Below, piece by piece: positions 1 through 19,613 of a DNA stretch of 23,886 nucleotides (positions are counted from its first letter, which is position 1; the number at the start of each line of letters is the position of its first letter). The stretch comes from a virus. Below the pieces are notes generated by a model. That model made no database searches. It saw only the letters and a program-made list of their open reading frames with translations, and was not told where the DNA came from. The translations under genes and the position numbers were made by a program. Location of the stretch: positions 1 through 23,886 of IMG/VR virus record IMGVR_UViG_3300025646_000369; one strand, written 5' to 3'.

Positions 1-549
1 TACACACTTAAAGTAGGATCACCTTCTGTAGATATTACTGACGCCACAGCCCTTGCAATTGTAAGCCAATACCGAGCTATGTATTTTAATGTTGCTAGAC
101 TTTGGCATACATTCAAAGACTTTTTATATACTATGTGTGTTCCTTCAAAGTCCACTTGCTATCCATACGGTCCATTAATTATTAAACATCAAGCCATCGA
201 GCTGCCAAACGGTATGCATTTGCAATACCCCAAATTAAATTTTGCAGGCGGTCAACATAATTATGATTCAGGCAAAGGATTTATCAAAACGTACGGGGCT
301 CGTGTAACGGAGAACGTAGTCCAGGCACTTGCACGTATTGTAATTATTGAACAAATGTTAGCAGTACACGCACTCCCTGAAGTATCCGTAGTATTGCAAG
401 TACACGACGAAATTGTATGTATTGGCTCAAATGTTGATCCAGACAAGACACTTAACAAAATTCTAAGTATAATGAAAACACCCCCTGCTTGGTGTTCTGA
501 TTTACCACTGGATGCTGAAGGGGGTTATAGTCAACAGTATGACAAATGA
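1..549 (+). CDS. Family A DNA polymerase, C-terminal part (5' end outside window)
   Basis: Replicative phage DNA polymerase of the Pol I family. The frame is open from base 1, so the gene starts before the window; 182 codons are visible. The piece carries the end of the polymerase domain: a Q-helix-like stretch (TENVVQALARIVI, encoded near 310-350) and motif C (VLQVHDEIV, near 394-420), whose His-Asp-Glu holds the catalytic aspartate that binds metal. The fingers and any 3'-5' exonuclease domain must lie upstream. The stop codon overlaps the next start as ATGA, so the CsrA-like gene is translationally coupled to the polymerase. An ATG at 79 is internal, because matching polymerase-like sequence continues upstream of it. 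The family call is firm; the subfamily cannot be told from this fragment. Confidence 0.93.
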   Translation, partial: YTLKVGSPSVDITDATALAIVSQYRAMYFNVARLWHTFKDFLYTMCVPSKSTCYPYGPLIIKHQAIELPNGMHLQYPKLNFAGGQHNYDSGKGFIKTYGARVTENVVQALARIVIIEQMLAVHALPEVSVVLQVHDEIVCIGSNVDPDKTLNKILSIMKTPPAWCSDLPLDAEGGYSQQYDK

Positions 550-731
550 GCAATCTAGTTTTAACAAGAAGAAAAGGGGACGCAGTTGTAATATACAAAG
601 ATAATGAGTTTCTTTGTAAAGTTACTGTTACTGCATTAGGCCCTAAACAAAGTAAACTAGCTTTTGAAGCTACCCCAGATATACATATTGACAGAGAGGA
701 AATATATAATTCAAAACAAGAAAATCCATAA
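546..731 (+). CDS. csrA: CsrA/RsmA-like post-transcriptional regulator
   Basis: A 61-residue protein with the full CsrA layout: an N-terminal strand LVLTRRKGD matching the bacterial L-LTRR-GE start, a central KVTVTALG strand matching VTVTVLG, and a C-terminal DIHIDREEIY matching VAVHREEIY. The RNA-contacting residues of E. coli CsrA, Leu4 and Arg44, correspond here to Leu6 and Arg50. Known family members are homodimers that bind GGA motifs in mRNA leaders, often covering the ribosome binding site. Compared with the bacterial protein there is an insertion of about five residues between the first two strands (YKDNEFL). It sits between the polymerase (ATGA overlap, no separate Shine-Dalgarno) and the primase-helicase, so it should be made with the replication genes. 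Targets, phage or host, cannot be read from the sequence. Confidence 0.86.
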   Translation: MSNLVLTRRKGDAVVIYKDNEFLCKVTVTALGPKQSKLAFEATPDIHIDREEIYNSKQENP

Positions 732-748
732 TAATATAGGAGTTAGAT

Positions 749-3202
749 ATGGAATTAGTATTTTTAAAAGCTAAACAACGCTTAGCAAAACATTTTACTG
801 AAGAAGGTGTCACACCTTATCCCTTAATAAAAAACTTTACTTCAGTACATAAACAAATAACTAAAGACACAAAAAAATTATTTACTGAACTTACAACAGC
901 AGCAGATGCTGGCATGTGTTTACACAAAGGTCTTTTAAAACGCCCACTTAAACACGAACCAAGAGCTTTAATGACAGATCGTATTGCAGCTACAGATTTG
1001 TTAGTTTTAGACTTTGACGACATACACGCAACTATTCCTAAAAAATCTGAGTTAAATACTCAAGATTTAGAATTACTAGCTGAACAACTTATTCAACAAT
1101 TACCTAATGAGTTTCACAATGTAAGCTATATTGCACAAGCTAGTGCTTCATTAGGTTTTAAAAAAGATAAAATATCTATGCATATCTTTTTTATACTTGA
1201 ACACGCAGGCCACCCAAAAGTATTAAAAGAACTTCTTAAATTATTAAATTATGAAACAGATAAACTTGCAGCTGAGTTAACTTTGTCAGCAAACGGTCAA
1301 AGTTTATCTTACAGACTTGATCCAGGAGTCGCTGACAATTCTAAAATTATTTATCTTGCGCCCCCCACATTTGCTAAAGAAGTACACAACCCAATTCCTG
1401 GACTTAGATTTATTCACGCCAAACGTGATTTAGAAACGTTAGATCTTTCTACTTTGCTTACTACAGTAAATCCTGAACGCGTTCATAATGTAGGAGTTCA
1501 AATAAAAGATAATTTAAGAAAAAAATTAAACCTTCCTAAAAAAGCTATAAAAACTACAACAGTTAATGTAGCTGGCGAACCTCACGAAGTATTACAAAAC
1601 CCAGATAAAATGACTATTGAAATAAGTCGAGTAGCTGAACCTTATGTTAATTGTAATGTTAACGGGGGCGATAGTGGTGCATATTATTTTGTATTAACTA
1701 ACCCGCATTATATGTATAACTTTAAAGGTGAACCTATTTGGGAAATACAAAAAGCTGACCCAGATTTTTATAAAAATATATTTGAAACTTTTGCAGATAA
1801 AATTGATAAAGATCAAAAATTAAAACCTTTAGCTCTTCGAGATTTTTATACTGACACTTACTATAACGGAGTATTTGATGAAACAATTCAACAATTTACA
1901 GAAGACTACCCTCTTACGCCAACTAATAAACAATCCATTGATGACTTTCTTAGGTCTCACAATCGCCCTTCCTTGGATTTTATTCCAGATGCTCGCGTTG
2001 TTTTTGATCCAAGTTCTGATAAAGGTATTGAACTTGACCAAGCACCCTACTACGTAAATCTTTATAGAAAAACTTCTTACATGTTACAACAAGAAGAACA
2101 TGTACCTGAACTAGAATATGGGACAGCAGAGAAAATAAAAATTCTAACTCCTCTTGTATACACTCTGTTGTCTCATGTTCTTGGTAACGGTAAAACTGAG
2201 TTAGAACATTTTGTCAATTGGCTTGCATACATTTATCAAAACAAACGCAAAACAATGACAGCATGGATATTTACGGGCGTACCAGGCACTGGTAAAGGGT
2301 TGTTTATTTATAAAGTTTTAAAACCTTTGTTTGGTGATTCCCAAGCCCCTATGCGTTCTTTAGAAAATATAGAAGAACAGTTTAATTTATATATGAGAAC
2401 TGCTTTATTTTTAATAGTTGATGAATTTCGTATGAGTGATGCAGGTAGTATTGGTAAAATGGCTGATAAACTTAAACATCAAATAACTGAACCTAGTTTA
2501 ACCATACGTGCAATGCGTACTAATCAAATAGAATTACCTTCATTTACTAACTTTATATTTTTAACTAATCGAGGAGATGCTGTAAAAATAGAAGATGGCG
2601 ATCGTAGATACAACGTAGCTCCTCGTCAAGAAACTAAAATAGAAATACAGCACCCAGAACTTTTACAAAATGTTAATAATATAGAAAAAGAACTTTATAT
2701 ATTTGCAGGCGTTTTAAATAAATTCAAAGTTGATCAACGTATGGCACATACAGCTTTAGAAAACGAAGCTAAATCTAAAATGAAAGAAATATCTATGTCT
2801 GTTCTTGAAGAGTTTGCTTTTGCTATTCGCCAAAGAAATTTAATTTATTTTTCAGAACTTTTAGAAATTCCACTTACTAATACTTTTGATGCGGGTGGGA
2901 TAAGCACTGCACAACGTTACGTAAAAGATTGGATTGCAAAAGCTGGAAACGAAACTTGTATACCTATGTCTCATTTTAAATTAGTTTATGATGTATTAAC
3001 TGATACACGAAATAAACTATCTCAACGAGACTTTACAAAAGCTATGTCACGATTAAATGTTACAACTTCTGTTAAACGTATAAATGATAAAACAGCAAGA
3101 GGGGTTGTATTAACTTGGAAATTAGACAATAATGTTAAACAAGAATTAATTGATACTCATTTTGAAGATCGAGATAAGCAACTACTAAAAGGAATTAGCT
3201 AA
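749..3202 (+). CDS. Primase-helicase: AEP-like primase domain plus SF3/D5-like helicase
   Basis: An 817-residue replication protein that probably primes and unwinds at the fork. The N-terminal part resembles an archaeo-eukaryotic (PrimPol-type) primase: an acidic motif LLVLDFDD at about residues 84-91, an S-x-H motif (SMHIFF) near 142, and a later aspartate in YRLDPGV near 188. The C-terminal part is a superfamily 3 helicase: Walker A GVPGTGKG near 510, Walker B LFLIVDEF near 553, a sensor Asn in FIFLTN near 602 and an Arg-finger candidate in GDRRYNV near 618. This matches the D5/DUF5906 phage and plasmid primase-helicases. A GGAG Shine-Dalgarno at 739-742 supports the ATG at 749. The helicase call is strong; the primase catalytic assignment rests on motif spacing only. 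Confidence 0.88.
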   Translation: MELVFLKAKQRLAKHFTEEGVTPYPLIKNFTSVHKQITKDTKKLFTELTTAADAGMCLHKGLLKRPLKHEPRALMTDRIAATDLLVLDFDDIHATIPKKSELNTQDLELLAEQLIQQLPNEFHNVSYIAQASASLGFKKDKISMHIFFILEHAGHPKVLKELLKLLNYETDKLAAELTLSANGQSLSYRLDPGVADNSKIIYLAPPTFAKEVHNPIPGLRFIHAKRDLETLDLSTLLTTVNPERVHNVGVQIKDNLRKKLNLPKKAIKTTTVNVAGEPHEVLQNPDKMTIEISRVAEPYVNCNVNGGDSGAYYFVLTNPHYMYNFKGEPIWEIQKADPDFYKNIFETFADKIDKDQKLKPLALRDFYTDTYYNGVFDETIQQFTEDYPLTPTNKQSIDDFLRSHNRPSLDFIPDARVVFDPSSDKGIELDQAPYYVNLYRKTSYMLQQEEHVPELEYGTAEKIKILTPLVYTLLSHVLGNGKTELEHFVNWLAYIYQNKRKTMTAWIFTGVPGTGKGLFIYKVLKPLFGDSQAPMRSLENIEEQFNLYMRTALFLIVDEFRMSDAGSIGKMADKLKHQITEPSLTIRAMRTNQIELPSFTNFIFLTNRGDAVKIEDGDRRYNVAPRQETKIEIQHPELLQNVNNIEKELYIFAGVLNKFKVDQRMAHTALENEAKSKMKEISMSVLEEFAFAIRQRNLIYFSELLEIPLTNTFDAGGISTAQRYVKDWIAKAGNETCIPMSHFKLVYDVLTDTRNKLSQRDFTKAMSRLNVTTSVKRINDKTARGVVLTWKLDNNVKQELIDTHFEDRDKQLLKGIS

Positions 3203-3214
3203 AAGCTACAAACT

Positions 3215-3970
3215 ATGACTAAGCTTGTACAAAACAAGCGTCCAGATCTAATTAATGTAATAGAACTGGGCACACCAAAGGAGTTGGGTTTAATACCTAC
3301 CTGGTCGCATTCCGCTTTAAAAACTTACGAAACCTGCGCATACCGTTCTTACATCTCTAAAGTTAAAAAAGTACAAGAAGAGTTTGGACCAGCCGCGCAA
3401 CGAGGTACTGACATACACGAACAAGCCGAGCTTTATGTAAACGGCGAACTCGGTGAAATGCCAGACACCCTTAAAAAATTCCAATCACAATTTGAAGAAC
3501 TTCGTGAATTTTTCATAGATGCAAAAGTAGAACTAGAAGGTGAATGGGGGTTCACTATTGAATGGGAACCTTGTGGTTGGATGGCTCCTAATGTTTGGGG
3601 TAGAATCAAACTAGATGCAATAGTACATGAAACAGAAACCTCAGCGCGAGTTATTGACTATAAAACAGGCAAACGCTTTGGTAATGAGATAAGCCATTCA
3701 CAGCAAGCTCTAACTTATGCAATTGGAAGTTTTATGAGATATCCAGATTTAGAAATTGCAAAAACAGAACTTTGGTATTTAGATCATGGTGAAACTAGCG
3801 AGCAAGTGTATACAAGAGATCAAGCTTTAGCGTTTATGCCAAACCTACAGCAGCGGGCTATTGATATGACAACAGCTACAAAGTTTCCCCCCAATCCTTC
3901 CAAAGACAATTGCAAATGGTGTTCATTTAAAAATGGTGAATATCCTATTTGCGAATGGGGTCTTAAATAG
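3215..3970 (+). CDS. PD-(D/E)XK exonuclease, RecB/Cas4-like, with a four-Cys cluster
   Basis: A 251-residue nuclease. The N-terminal SHSALKTYETCAYRSY (residues 31-46) matches the start of RecB/AddB/Cas4-type nucleases, with Cys41. The catalytic core shows an Asp in IKLDAIV near 133 and D-x-K in VIDYKTGK near 148, followed by a conserved Gln in SQQALTYA. The C terminus has Cys233, Cys236 and Cys246. One N-terminal and three C-terminal cysteines is the pattern that holds a 4Fe-4S cluster in AddB and Cas4, so a cluster is likely here. It lies between the primase-helicase and an SF2 helicase, fitting a role in end resection or recombination during replication. There is no clear Shine-Dalgarno; translation may depend on coupling from the gene 12 nt upstream. 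Cas4 proper is unlikely, as no CRISPR genes are nearby. Confidence 0.86.
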   Translation: MTKLVQNKRPDLINVIELGTPKELGLIPTWSHSALKTYETCAYRSYISKVKKVQEEFGPAAQRGTDIHEQAELYVNGELGEMPDTLKKFQSQFEELREFFIDAKVELEGEWGFTIEWEPCGWMAPNVWGRIKLDAIVHETETSARVIDYKTGKRFGNEISHSQQALTYAIGSFMRYPDLEIAKTELWYLDHGETSEQVYTRDQALAFMPNLQQRAIDMTTATKFPPNPSKDNCKWCSFKNGEYPICEWGLK

Positions 3971-4012: not shown

Positions 4013-5362
4013 ATGATGAATAATATACTTGCGCCTTACGCGCACCAATCTAAAACCACTAACTTTATTCTATCTCACCCACGCTGTCTTATTACATCCG
4101 ATCCCGGCACTGGTAAAACTAGAGCAGTTCTTGACGCTATTACAAACCTTCCAGGTAAAACACTTGTACTTGCGCCGTTATCTATACTTGAAGCAGCATG
4201 GGTTGATGACATTAAAAAGTTTCAACCTAATATAAAATTTGGAGTTGCATATGCTAAAAACCGTAAAAAAATATTTACCGACACTTCGCACGAGATGGTT
4301 ATTACTAACTTCGAGGCTGTCAATTTCTTATATAAAAACCCACACTTACTTAAGGGATTCACTACAATCGTTATTGACGAATTCACCGCTTTTAAAAACA
4401 AAGATTCGCAACGATCTAAAAGTATCAGAAATTTTATCTCATTGTTTACTTATAGGATTGCCATGTCTGGTACTCCTAATAGTAATTCTATTCTAGACCT
4501 TTGGCACCCAGTGTTGCTCGTAGATGATGGTGATCACCTCGGGCAACGCTTTTATTCTTACCGCAACCAAGTTTGCACGCCTAAATTCAATGGCTTTGCT
4601 AACGAATGGGTTGACAAGCCAGGTATTGAACAAGCAGTTGCGGCTCGACTTAGTGATATAACTATTCGCTACAAACTAGAAGACTGTATTGACTTACCTG
4701 AAAATATTATAAGAACTGTACGAACTAATCTAAGTCCTGAAGTCCAACGTATGTACAATGACTTCAGCAAAGATTCTGTTTTGTATACCAAAATGGGCAC
4801 CATCAATGCTGTACACGCAGGGGCCCGAGTTAAAAAGTTATTACAAATCATCTCAGGCGGAGTATATGACGAAGATGGCTTAGTTCAATATCTTCATCAA
4901 GAACGCTATGACATTGTTATGGATCTTGTATCCGAACGTAAACATTCTATTGTTGCATTCAATTGGAGGCATGAACGAGATGCGTTAATTGAATTAGCAA
5001 CTAAACAAAAAATATCTTACGAAGTTATTGATGGCAGCGTACCTGCTGAAAAACGTAAAGACATTGTACAAAGATTCCAGGCTGGTCATATTCGTGTACT
5101 GTTTTGTCATCCACAATCCGCAGGCCATGGTCTTACGTTAACAAAAGCTACCACAGCCATATGGTGTTCACCAACTTACAATGCTGAGCACTTTCAACAA
5201 TTTAATAGACGTATACACCGCGCTAGTCAAACACAAAAAACCGAAACAATTCTTATTGCTGCTAGAAATACGTGGGAAGAAGAAGTATATAAAAAACTAA
5301 ATGGAAAATTAGGAAAAATGGAAAACCTACTTCATATTCTCACGGAGCTTAATAATGAATAG
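4013..5362 (+). CDS. SF2 helicase, SNF2/DEAD-like
   Basis: A 449-residue helicase or translocase. Visible motifs in order are a Q-motif-like PYAHQ at residues 8-12, Walker A SDPGTGKT at 29-36 (Lys35), motif II VIDEFTAFKN near 120-129, motif III AMSGTPNS near 149, and in the second RecA lobe GHGLTLTKA near 374 and motif VI QQFNRRIHRASQ near 399-410. This combination, with a DE-x-x box and an R-x-H-R-x-x-Q end, is typical of compact phage SNF2-like helicases. There are two adjacent ATG codons at 4013 and 4016; I use the first. Its position after the nuclease suggests both act on the same DNA intermediates. The 3' end overlaps the next gene by 8 nt. The exact activity (unwinding, translocation or annealing) is not readable. 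Confidence 0.88.
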   Translation: MMNNILAPYAHQSKTTNFILSHPRCLITSDPGTGKTRAVLDAITNLPGKTLVLAPLSILEAAWVDDIKKFQPNIKFGVAYAKNRKKIFTDTSHEMVITNFEAVNFLYKNPHLLKGFTTIVIDEFTAFKNKDSQRSKSIRNFISLFTYRIAMSGTPNSNSILDLWHPVLLVDDGDHLGQRFYSYRNQVCTPKFNGFANEWVDKPGIEQAVAARLSDITIRYKLEDCIDLPENIIRTVRTNLSPEVQRMYNDFSKDSVLYTKMGTINAVHAGARVKKLLQIISGGVYDEDGLVQYLHQERYDIVMDLVSERKHSIVAFNWRHERDALIELATKQKISYEVIDGSVPAEKRKDIVQRFQAGHIRVLFCHPQSAGHGLTLTKATTAIWCSPTYNAEHFQQFNRRIHRASQTQKTETILIAARNTWEEEVYKKLNGKLGKMENLLHILTELNNE

Positions 5363-16144: not shown

Positions 16145-16501
16145 TTAATTCGCCAAAGGGTTTTTATCTTTTTCTAATTTACTTTCTAGGTCTTTGATTT
16201 GCTTTTCAATGTTCTGTTTAGAGTTCATGTATTGCTCTTTTAACAAAGCCCAGTCCTGATTATTTTTGCTAATGTCTTGTTGAAGGGAATCAATTAAATT
16301 TATTTTTTGAATCTTTTCTTGAAGTACAGAAAGATCTGTTTTAATTGCATTAATATCTTCTTCGTATGATACAGAAGTTTGAGATTCTAAAGCTTCAATG
16401 CGCTGTACGTACCCCGCTCCTGTGTAGCCAAAGCCAGCAATAGTAGCAATAAGACCACCTAAAGCAACAATCTGCCCAAGTTTTGATTCTAAGAAATTCA
16501 T
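16145..16501 (-). CDS. N-anchored coiled-coil protein, possible i-spanin
   Basis: A 118-residue protein with one N-terminal transmembrane helix (about 9-31; IVALGGLIATIAGFGYTGAG) followed by a long periplasm-directed coiled coil (INAIKTDLSVLQEKIQKINL through IEKQIKDLESKLEKDK). Type II topology with a charged coiled coil next to holin and lysozyme genes is the layout of inner-membrane spanins (Rz). No obvious lipoprotein o-spanin partner is seen overlapping it. Its ATG overlaps the stop of the large exported protein (16498-16501). Assignment is by architecture only. Confidence 0.6.
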   Translation of the reverse strand: MNFLESKLGQIVALGGLIATIAGFGYTGAGYVQRIEALESQTSVSYEEDINAIKTDLSVLQEKIQKINLIDSLQQDISKNNQDWALLKEQYMNSKQNIEKQIKDLESKLEKDKNPLAN

Positions 16502-18591
16502 AAATTTACCTGTAAATCAATAATTTTTTGAAGCGTACTTATGTTCGCTCCACTTAAATTATAGTATGCATTTGTATTATCATCAATTTTATTGTCAGTA
16601 TAAATTGTTTTATCTTGATACCACTGCTGTTGATCAGGAATACTTGTATCTCTGTATTGATTAAATCCTGGAACAAAACCTAGATAGGCTACGAATGCCG
16701 TTTGGTCTGCATATTCACCAGACTCTTGTTGTTCTTCTTCCATCTCTTCTTGTTCTTGTTTTAAATTTTGAGCAATAATTTTATCTGCAATTTTATCTGC
16801 CTCGGATGCTGTCATAACATTAGTGGTTGCAGAAAGTATTTGGTCTTGAATGTCGTTTATTTGAACATCAGCCATGACTGTATCATCTAAAGTAAATAAA
16901 GGTGTAATAGTGATTGAATTTCCGCCTAGCGTTTCTGTGTTATCTGTCATTTGTAGAACCGTATTTGTTTGTGCACTTGCAGATAATATTTGATCGGAGA
17001 TAGAAGGAGAGTTAGATGTACTTGACCCAAAGCTGTTGCTTGATTGACTGGATGTAGTCTGTTGGGTTTCTGTATTCCCTATATTGTTTTGAGTTGTATA
17101 ACTATCGGTTGCTACAGACATAGCTTGAGCTATGACCGCTAAACCTTTGCTTATGCTGTTTCCTTTTACTTCTTCCTGAACAACCTCTTTCTCAACAACC
17201 TCCTCAATGCTTTCCTCTATAGCTTCTTCTACTATTTCTTCTACAATCTCTTCTTCAATAATTGGCTCTTCTTCAATGATCGTTTCTATTTCTTCCATGG
17301 TTTCTTCTAATACAAAAGCTTCTACTAATTCTTCTGCATCAAATACATCAATCACATCTATGATTTCTGGAAGAGGATCATAGGTTTCTACAACTTCTAC
17401 AGGCGGCTCGTATAGTTCTTCTTGAATAGATTCTTCAAAAAATACTTCTTCCACAGGTTCGGTGTAAGGTATAACTTCTTCTTCGGTAATTTCAAATACT
17501 TCATACTCCATAGGAGAAGTCTGTATTGCCATAATTGCAATGACTTCTGGTATGTAGCCAGAACAAGTAGGATAGGCTTGAGAATCTAATTCACATTCAT
17601 AATCACGATAGGCTTGCTCATACCCCGGGCAAGAAGTGTCATACAAAGTATCTATAGTGCATTGTTGGTCAAGATAAGCTTCAGCATAACCTGTGCAAGA
17701 ACTGTCATACAACGCATCTATACCACATTGCTGATCAAGATAAGCTTCCTCGTATCCTGAACATTCAGTAGAGTAAAGAGAATCTAAGCCACATTGTTGG
17801 TCTTGATAGGCTTGTGCATAACCAGTACAGCTTGTTGAATAAAGAGCATCTATATCACATTGCTGGCTAAGATAGGCTTCTTCGTACCCAGTGCAGCTTG
17901 TATCATTTAAGGGATTGCTACAATCAACCGCTTCATAATATAAAGACCCACCAGCTTCTAAGTTTGCATTTTTATCAGAACTATTCCAATCGTAGCTATA
18001 ACAGTTTGTGCCGTTATATGATCCTGTATTGCATTCATCATGGAAATAGTAGGTGTAAGTTTCATTGGATGTCCCTTGTTGTCCGATAAGAACATCGTGG
18101 TTAATAACATCTAAATCTCCGTAACGGATATCAAAACTATTATTGTTCCAAAGAATAACTTCAAAGCTGTTATACGAGTTGGTGCGATAATACTCTTGCA
18201 TCTTGTACCAACCAAAAACAATCTTGTCGTTAAAGTTTTTTGCTGCCATCTTTGCATTAGCATCGGCTGCTATAAGATCAGTCCAAAAGGGATATATGGT
18301 GTAATTAAATTTAGGTAAAGGGGTGGGGTTATATTGATTACAGCCTGTACCTGTTGAACCAAAATGCAAACAACCATTGCTTGCCATCCGTGCTGTAGAA
18401 AAAGTTTGATCGTAAAAGGTAAAGTCAAACCCTAAATTAAAAGCTGCCGAGATACCGTCATCACCCGTTGTTAACCATGTAACATCTGTTTGATTGGTTA
18501 AATCAACTAACGATTGGTTGGATTCGTATATGTATTGTGGAAATAGGTTACAACAAAGAAGTGCTATTCCCCATAGAACTCTTTTTTGCAT
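16498..18591 (-). CDS. Large exported protein: nidogen-like domain, Cys repeats, Glu-rich stalk
   Basis: A 697-residue protein of unknown function. Residues 1-20 (MQKRVLWGIALLCCNLFPQY) look like a signal peptide. Residues about 30-215 resemble a nidogen-like (NIDO) beta domain: FNLGFDFTFYDQTFSTARMA, SNGCLHFGSTGTG, YPFWTDL, and FEVILWNNNSFDIRYGDLD. Residues about 224-346 carry near-identical 22-residue repeats with two Cys each. Residues about 360-480 are extremely Glu-rich, then a Ser/Asn/Gln-rich region and a helical, Gln/Glu-rich segment near 640. Known NIDO domains mediate extracellular adhesion. The gene starts within the last 28 nt of the other signal-peptide gene. It could be an exported envelope protein, a superinfection factor or a virion surface adhesin. 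Confidence 0.72.
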   Translation of the reverse strand: MQKRVLWGIALLCCNLFPQYIYESNQSLVDLTNQTDVTWLTTGDDGISAAFNLGFDFTFYDQTFSTARMASNGCLHFGSTGTGCNQYNPTPLPKFNYTIYPFWTDLIAADANAKMAAKNFNDKIVFGWYKMQEYYRTNSYNSFEVILWNNNSFDIRYGDLDVINHDVLIGQQGTSNETYTYYFHDECNTGSYNGTNCYSYDWNSSDKNANLEAGGSLYYEAVDCSNPLNDTSCTGYEEAYLSQQCDIDALYSTSCTGYAQAYQDQQCGLDSLYSTECSGYEEAYLDQQCGIDALYDSSCTGYAEAYLDQQCTIDTLYDTSCPGYEQAYRDYECELDSQAYPTCSGYIPEVIAIMAIQTSPMEYEVFEITEEEVIPYTEPVEEVFFEESIQEELYEPPVEVVETYDPLPEIIDVIDVFDAEELVEAFVLEETMEEIETIIEEEPIIEEEIVEEIVEEAIEESIEEVVEKEVVQEEVKGNSISKGLAVIAQAMSVATDSYTTQNNIGNTETQQTTSSQSSNSFGSSTSNSPSISDQILSASAQTNTVLQMTDNTETLGGNSITITPLFTLDDTVMADVQINDIQDQILSATTNVMTASEADKIADKIIAQNLKQEQEEMEEEQQESGEYADQTAFVAYLGFVPGFNQYRDTSIPDQQQWYQDKTIYTDNKIDDNTNAYYNLSGANISTLQKIIDLQVNL
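17553..17921 (-). repeat. 66-nt coding repeats, 22-residue Cys repeat
   Basis: About five and a half tandem units of 66 nt encode the pattern C-x2-D-x-L-Y-x3-C-x-G-Y-x2-A-Y-x-D-Q-Q within the large exported protein. Each unit has two cysteines nine residues apart, suggesting disulfide-bonded modules in an oxidising compartment. Units differ mostly by silent or conservative changes. Confidence 0.8.
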
Positions 18592-19613
18592 TGTCCAGCG
18601 GTTTTAGTTTTGCGTGTATAAATCACCTGTATAGCACCCACAACATCTCTGTTGACTTTTTCTCTTTGGGGGTTTGGTTCATTTATACACTGTTTAATAA
18701 ACTCTTCTAAGACCTCTTCTTTGTCGGGTCTATGACTTGGGTTTTCTATCCATGCTTTAGTAGCTTCTTCTCCTATTTTGCCTCTATAAGGACAAGGAGT
18801 GCCTGCCATATTCATTGCTTTAAATACTCTTTCATCTTGGCATAGCAAAGCAACAGAAGCTACTTTCATACCCATGTCGTATAAATATTTAGATAGTTTT
18901 AATCTTTCGCAATTTTGATCTATGACTGCCTTACCGCCTGATAAACCAAACACCTGCCCCTGAAATGCACCAGATACTCCTGTAGTACAAAGGTCTTGTG
19001 AATACGACATAATGCTTGGGGCAATCGCACTTGCTGGGGGTGCTTTAGTTTTTACTGTTTGGTTGATGTTTTGCGTTGAAGTCGATTCATTAATATTTCT
19101 ATTGGTATTGTCAGAAGTAGAATTGCTGACATTGTTGTTAAAGTTAGTGTTAGTGTTGTCAGTTGTAACATTGGACTCAGAAGTCGATTCATTGTAGTTC
19201 CTATTCGTGTTGTCCGAGGTGCTGTTATTTTCATTGTAGTTAGTATTTGTTGAGGTTGAAGTATTAGTTACATTTTGATCAACCGTAGAATTTTGAGTTA
19301 CATTCGACTCGTTATAATTATTATTAACATTATTGTTGGTATTGGTTGATGTCGAAGTTGAAGTCGAATTATTAGTATTTACATTCGTATTGTTATTGGT
19401 GTTGGTATTATCGGAAGTAGATGTCGAAGTAGAAGTCGAGGTGTTGGTATTGGTATTAGTGTTGGTATTAGTGTTAGTGGTTGTAGTGGTATTACTAGTA
19501 TCTAAGCTGTTAGCTTCACAATATTGAGTACCAGCATTACAACTACCTGTTTGTTGGGCAAAAGCTATTATAGGTAAAATTCCTAAACTTAGTAAAATTG
19601 CCCTTTTAATCAT
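18564..19613 (-). CDS. Exported Asn/Thr/Ser-rich protein with conserved C-terminal domain
   Basis: A 349-residue protein. Residues 1-19 (MIKRAILLSLGILPIIAFA) are a textbook Sec signal peptide with an A-F-A cleavage site before QQTG. Residues about 39-190 are low complexity, almost only Asn, Thr, Ser and some Asp/Val, with periodic NYNES and STSDNTN motifs. Residues about 195-349 form a compact domain with spaced cysteines: SYSQDLCTTGVSGAFQGQVF, NCERLKLSKYLYDMGMKVAS, LLCQDERVFKAMNMAGTPCP. I recall this last domain from other marine phages but know of no function. The gene overlaps the next signal-peptide gene by 28 nt and follows a 47-aa gene by ATGA overlap, so the set is co-translated. Exported by sequence; role unknown. 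Confidence 0.72.
   Translation of the reverse strand: MIKRAILLSLGILPIIAFAQQTGSCNAGTQYCEANSLDTSNTTTTTNTNTNTNTNTNTSTSTSTSTSDNTNTNNNTNVNTNNSTSTSTSTNTNNNVNNNYNESNVTQNSTVDQNVTNTSTSTNTNYNENNSTSDNTNRNYNESTSESNVTTDNTNTNFNNNVSNSTSDNTNRNINESTSTQNINQTVKTKAPPASAIAPSIMSYSQDLCTTGVSGAFQGQVFGLSGGKAVIDQNCERLKLSKYLYDMGMKVASVALLCQDERVFKAMNMAGTPCPYRGKIGEEATKAWIENPSHRPDKEEVLEEFIKQCINEPNPQREKVNRDVVGAIQVIYTRKTKTAGQCKKEFYGE
19045..19500 (-). repeat. Low-complexity Asn/Thr/Ser coding repeat
   Basis: The DNA is built from short degenerate units on the minus strand (AAYACY and TCGACTTC-like triplets) encoding N-T and S-T dipeptides, with several longer near-copies of NRNYNES and NSTSDNTN. It is prone to slippage, and its length probably varies between relatives. 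The antisense strand gives a long Val/Leu frame that is an artefact. Confidence 0.7.

Follow-up and report, generated by a model that had tools for sequence, protein, structure and literature searches.

A divergent CsrA-family gene fixed between the DNA polymerase and primase genes of an uncultured phage clade

The open reading frame at positions 546-731 of the plus strand was confirmed to be a real, divergent gene of the CsrA family, and it lies between the genes for a family A DNA polymerase (polA) and a primase-helicase in every relative that has sequence at this place. CsrA is a bacterial RNA-binding regulator. The window, that is, the whole stretch of DNA analyzed here, is a complete linear contig of IMG/VR with a length of 23,886 bases. 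On balance, and with some reserve, we regard the product as a phage-owned, dimeric CsrA that binds GGA-containing RNA, is co-expressed with the replication proteins and probably serves as a translational regulator, mainly of the phage's own programme. The operon contains the following features.

1..549, plus strand: 3' end of polA (family A DNA polymerase), cut by the contig start (PHROG 7766 DNA polymerase, E=9.5e-27)
517..524, plus strand: GAAGGGGG, a purine-rich, Shine-Dalgarno-like stretch within polA, 21 nt before csrA (Gly-codon usage)
546..549, plus strand: ATGA, the overlap of the csrA start and the polA stop, start-stop coupling (the two genes overlap or almost abut in nearly all relatives)
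546..731, plus strand: csrA-like gene, 61 aa, putative RNA-binding regulator (Pfam PF02599, PHROG 9500, AlphaFold2 model, kept in all relatives)
725..753, plus strand: candidate hairpin at the primase start, a weak candidate target (-6.6 kcal/mol, z -2.2)
749..3202, plus strand: primase-helicase (DUF5906 / VapE-like), the next operon gene (Pfam DUF5906, E=2.1e-17; PHROG 24712, E=1e-157)
3215..3970, plus strand: PD-(D/E)XK exonuclease, same operon (Pfam PDDEXK_1, E=2.7e-20)
4013..5362, plus strand: SNF2-type helicase, same operon (PHROG 62, E=1.2e-105)

The product of the csrA frame is MSNLVLTRRKGDAVVIYKDNEFLCKVTVTALGPKQSKLAFEATPDIHIDREEIYNSKQENP (61 aa). Its ATG occupies positions 546-548 and the TGA of polA positions 547-549, and the primase-helicase of 817 aa starts at 749. 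The initial annotation had described a csrA frame coupled by ATGA to polA and placed directly before the primase-helicase, and all of this was found as claimed. In related contigs, where polA is full-length, it encodes about 600 aa. Two members of the clade (L034 and L035) have an extra small open reading frame between polA and csrA.

The assignment to the CsrA family was examined by profile searches and by structure prediction. The product matched Pfam PF02599 with 37 bits (E=3.4e-9), above the cut-off of 27, and PHROG 9500 'CsrA-like regulator' with E=4.8e-10. Meanwhile, it missed the cut-offs of the NCBIfam CsrA equivalogs NF002469 and TIGR00202 by a wide margin (36.6 vs 73 and 31.8 vs 70.1 bits), and the phage protein is therefore, as judged from its profile scores, a divergent member of the CsrA family and, by the equivalog test, not an orthologue of bacterial CsrA. 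The AlphaFold2 model built with 28 relatives in the alignment reached a mean pLDDT of 91.4 and superseded an earlier, mediocre model from 12 sequences (pLDDT 74). It has the CsrA chain fold of five strands and a C-terminal helix: strands were assigned to residues 13-18, 21-32 and 35-42 and the helix to residues 51-59, while residues 3-9 and 46-50, the equivalents of β1 and β5, adopt an extended form without pairing partners in the monomer. These free edges are consistent with what a domain-swapped dimer would require. The Foldseek search with this model returned CsrA, RsmA and RsmE chains in all of its first 14 rows, the best E-value being 0.009; the E-values are modest, as can be expected of such a short chain. 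In VIA-align 2, the seven best entries were all from the CsrA family (Z 5.7-8.2), headed by P. aeruginosa RsmA (1vpz; Z 8.2, rmsd 1.6, 57 residues), and the first unrelated row had a Z of 3.3. The initial annotation had proposed the profile search as a check and had agreed to give way if there were no match or if the fold were a different one; the search gave a significant match and the single-chain model has the CsrA fold.

The phage protein shares its chain fold with the bacterial proteins E. coli CsrA, P. aeruginosa RsmA (1vpz) and P. fluorescens RsmE (2jpp), to which it is about 30-34% identical in the structure alignments. It also has the LTRR of β1, the I/V-x-R-E-E of β5 and the equivalents of L4 and R44 in common with them. 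L4 and R44 are the critical RNA contacts of E. coli CsrA (PMC7652899), and they align with L6 and R50 of the phage protein. Among 93 distinct loci, M1, L4, T7, R8, A42, D49, R50 and E52 (phage numbering) were invariant, and L6 and I48 were each retained in 92; the reading of the initial annotation that the 61-aa product keeps both main RNA-contact positions is supported. A few members with non-ATG starts or an LSR variant stand outside this count and have the same core, with T7 changed to S in some.

The subfamily differs from the bacterial proteins in several respects. The position of E. coli H43, which adjoins the key arginine, is D throughout the clade. The β2-β3 hairpin is lengthened by about six residues (Y17-K25 in place of three E. 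coli residues), the β3-β4 turn has a two-residue deletion compared with E. coli CsrA, the N-terminus carries a short extension of 2-5 residues, and a cysteine occupies position 24 in 71 of 73 distinct proteins. An insertion had been anticipated in the initial annotation, at about five residues; it is real and counts six, but it is located in the β2-β3 hairpin and not between β1 and β2. The change of H43 to D, together with a score far below the equivalog cut-off, suggests that the RNA specificity may have shifted.

To follow the gene through related phages, IMG/VR was scanned with the CsrA protein as the query, which gave 36 loci, and separately with the primase alone, blind to csrA, which gave 80 loci, 78 of them with sequence upstream of the primase. 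csrA was present in all 78, and polA was visible in 77, each in the order polA-csrA-primase. A search for this order in relatives had been suggested from the window, and its outcome was very strongly positive. A wider scan with a primase alignment, whose contigs partly overlap those of the first scan, again found csrA in every locus (75 of 75), and the primases across the set diverged down to 42% identity. As csrA recurs at this site in all relatives whose sequence covers it, its location is far beyond chance. The accessory, patchy distribution expected of auxiliary metabolic genes was not observed in the 78/78 and 75/75 loci. With its presence throughout a diverged clade, at a fixed operon site, csrA behaves like a core phage gene and not a patchy metabolic accessory; always found between polA and the primase, it looks like a standard working viral part and not an occasional borrowed gene.

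The pairwise distances between csrA genes followed those of the primase (Spearman 0.75) and of polA (0.71), with a Mantel p of 0.002; by this comparison of distances, csrA was shown to be inherited vertically with polA and the primase within the clade. The closest csrA pairs (dS 0.10-0.24) had dN/dS values of 0-0.32, and for these pairs the codon comparison showed purifying selection. At larger distances the median dN/dS was 0.27, a value that is unreliable because the synonymous sites are near saturation.

We propose that the phage CsrA would pair into a domain-swapped dimer and that this dimer would bind GGA-containing RNA by the edges of β1 and β5. Through start-stop coupling to polA, it would be co-expressed with the replication proteins, and it may damp or time the translation of selected mRNAs during infection. 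Phage mRNAs would be the main targets and host mRNAs possible additional ones. The likeliest primary role lies in the phage programme, where CsrA would set or switch the expression of phage genes, because csrA is a fixed core gene of the clade. On its distribution, we lean towards phage-directed timing over the control of host carbon. The initial annotation had named both: the retuning of host carbon flow received no direct support, csrA being universal in the clade and fixed in the replication operon, whereas the timing of phage mRNAs appears to fit the core-gene pattern better. An accessory gene of carbon metabolism was rejected as the leading reading because of the universal presence in the clade. 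A further proposal, which we hold to be doubtful, is that CsrA acts as an obligatory internal post-transcriptional switch, coupled to polA and altered in specificity (H43 to D, longer β2-β3 hairpin), which would time the passage from replication to virion gene expression.

It is possible, although on the unlikely side, that the protein binds RNA in the manner of CsrA but acts mainly on host mRNAs and takes over the host Csr/Rsm regulon (carbon metabolism, motility and defence, e.g., cas). The retained RNA-contact residues would suit such a role, and there are precedents in the parts of the literature covered here: RsmA represses CRISPR-Cas and phage RsmA homologues correlate with RsmA-bearing hosts (Campa et al. 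2021, PMC8450108), and the plasmid protein RsmQ reshapes and controls host behaviour (PMC9928087). However, a universal, syntenic presence in a replication operon would be unusual for a host-directed accessory gene. Moreover, the sole cellular match, L145 (contig PBPT01000002.1, 60,834 bases), is a phage-sized contig of 60.8 kb in a Candidatus Neomarinimicrobiota (Marinimicrobia) MAG in which no further CsrA match was present. We did not accept Marinimicrobia as the host, since this one phage-sized contig of the clade in the bin is a weak hint; a search for tRNA genes as a further hint of the host found none.

Phage CsrA as such has already been published. The survey of Sobrero and Valverde (2020) recorded csrA in 30 of 2517 phages, marine metagenomic entries included (PMC7366521), and Campa et al. 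(2021) collected phage CsrA/RsmA from GenBank and IMG/VR and proposed an anti-CRISPR role (PMC8450108); their IMG/VR search may already include some contigs of the present clade. The published genes come, as here, from tailed phages, including marine metagenomic ones. In the sections of these surveys that we considered, phage csrA is treated as scattered or host-acquired and read as host-manipulating cargo, whereas here it is a fixed clade gene at one operon position. None of the sections considered reports a clade in which csrA is invariably placed between polA and the primase, an absence that is not proof. The new part is the fixed replication-operon subfamily. A fixed and vertically inherited csrA raises a testable question, namely whether the timetable of a phage is run by RNA-level control through CsrA. 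In addition, more than 70 distinct natural variants are available from the clade, all of a small and well-understood RNA binder in which the residue beside the key arginine is changed.

Judged by the portal and capsid encoded on a related contig of 57 kb, the nearest phages to the clade are KPP25-like podoviruses, with 55% identity in the capsid, followed at a greater distance by Bcep22-like ones. The polymerase, primase, portal and capsid of the KPP25-like podoviruses and Aeromonas phage phiA008 are related to those of the clade but, unlike the clade, these phages gave no CsrA match anywhere in the searched records. The same was true of all six sisters searched, i.e., KPP25, phiA008, Acidovorax phage AP1, Pseudomonas phage Rollin, Rhizobium phage RHph_TM3_14A and MW202615, in the last of which one match (12.6 bits, 26 residues) was judged to be due to chance. 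Most simply, this can be read as csrA having been gained separately at the base of the clade. A CsrA-fold protein also occurs in the podoviruses Bcep22/DC1, Parlo, PEp14, Skulduggery and SopranoGao, whose virions (portal, capsid) are distantly related; there, the csrA-like gene lies right before that of the major capsid protein, and the LTRR motif is lost. Orthology with these proteins was rejected, as they scored 0-13 bits against the clade profile and E. coli CsrA scored 35 bits; scores below that of E. coli make a separate acquisition likelier. Nine records of 57-64 kb, for which completeness is not given, contained no integrase, so a lytic life is likely. The clade is a large group of uncultured phages, apparently marine to judge from related marine phage entries.

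The RNA targets were sought around the genes of the operon, where they bear on autoregulation in cis, i.e., on a ratio of polymerase, CsrA and primase that is set through GGA sites where csrA and the primase gene begin. We consider this unlikely, even though csrA lies between both genes in every member. The EGG codons of polA, 14-21 nt upstream of the csrA start, are Shine-Dalgarno-like, and 61 of 73 distinct polA tails have GGA or GGG at the Gly codon compared with 33% in the polA bodies, a count that ignores relatedness. Such a bias can mean either a Shine-Dalgarno aid to coupling or a CsrA site, and it may only reflect the former function; the window itself has GGG, not GGA, before csrA. 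At the primase start, a Shine-Dalgarno GGA and AUGGA are present in many members, and in the window the Shine-Dalgarno GGA is predicted to fall within the hexaloop AUAGGA (736-741) of a hairpin whose stem includes the start codon. A similar hairpin was predicted for L003 only and was absent from L002, L004, L008, L013 and L018; as it is not kept across the folded members, we rejected a conserved hairpin with GGA at this start as the target. None of these GGA sites is shared by every member.

The search was also extended beyond the operon. No intergenic ANGGA cluster of the kind expected for a CsrB-like sponge RNA was found in the records scanned, and the densest stretch, where one record ends with six ANGGA motifs over 690 nt, was rejected as a sponge since it had no repeat in other records. 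ANGGA outside Shine-Dalgarno sequences occurred in 0.45 of start regions vs 0.29 internally, a weak and modest difference taken without statistical control.

It is highly improbable that the fold was kept while RNA binding was lost or altered, with the protein serving as a protein-binding partner, e.g., in a heterodimer that blocks host CsrA: the clade-wide change of H43 to D, the lengthened β2-β3 hairpin and the near-invariant new cysteine would agree with this, and the loss of LTRR in the Bcep22-like relatives indicates that such loss occurs in phages, but the (near-)invariant L6, T7, R8, I48 and R50 are hard to explain without RNA binding.

A strongly structured non-coding leader of about 170-200 nt was seen outside the window, immediately before the gene of the major capsid protein (L120:17589-17809, which is 37589-37809 of record G001); about 60 distinct loci among L222-L301 have it ahead of their capsid gene as well. 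Two-sided changes that preserve pairing were present in 17 of its 30 predicted pairs, and a covarying helix (A3 columns 104-107:121-124) interlocks with 99-102:111-114 as an H-type pseudoknot. The covariance model of the leader matched once per clade genome searched and gave no match in the KPP25 or Bcep22-like regions. The leader had no Rfam match. It looks like an undescribed cis-regulatory RNA. As a target of CsrA it was rejected, having no conserved GGA besides the Shine-Dalgarno sequence.

Several other proteins were observed. Another viral contig (L037:677-967) encodes a CsrA-like protein with the same MSNLVLTRK start, but with over 30 residues inserted. On the minus strand of the window, two large proteins had no Pfam match: one of 697 aa (16498-18591) that has a repeat containing cysteine (QQC..DxLY..xCxGYxxAY) as well as a long acidic stretch rich in E, I and V, and one of 349 aa (18564-19613) with an N-terminal half made almost only of N, T and S repeats. 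Between 7829 and 9500, the same strand encodes a series of small proteins with a very high content of lysine and arginine (66, 94, 93, 56, 83, 62 and 44 aa); one of them has a weak HNH match and one a weak DUF5872 match, and a similar run of small proteins is present in record G001.
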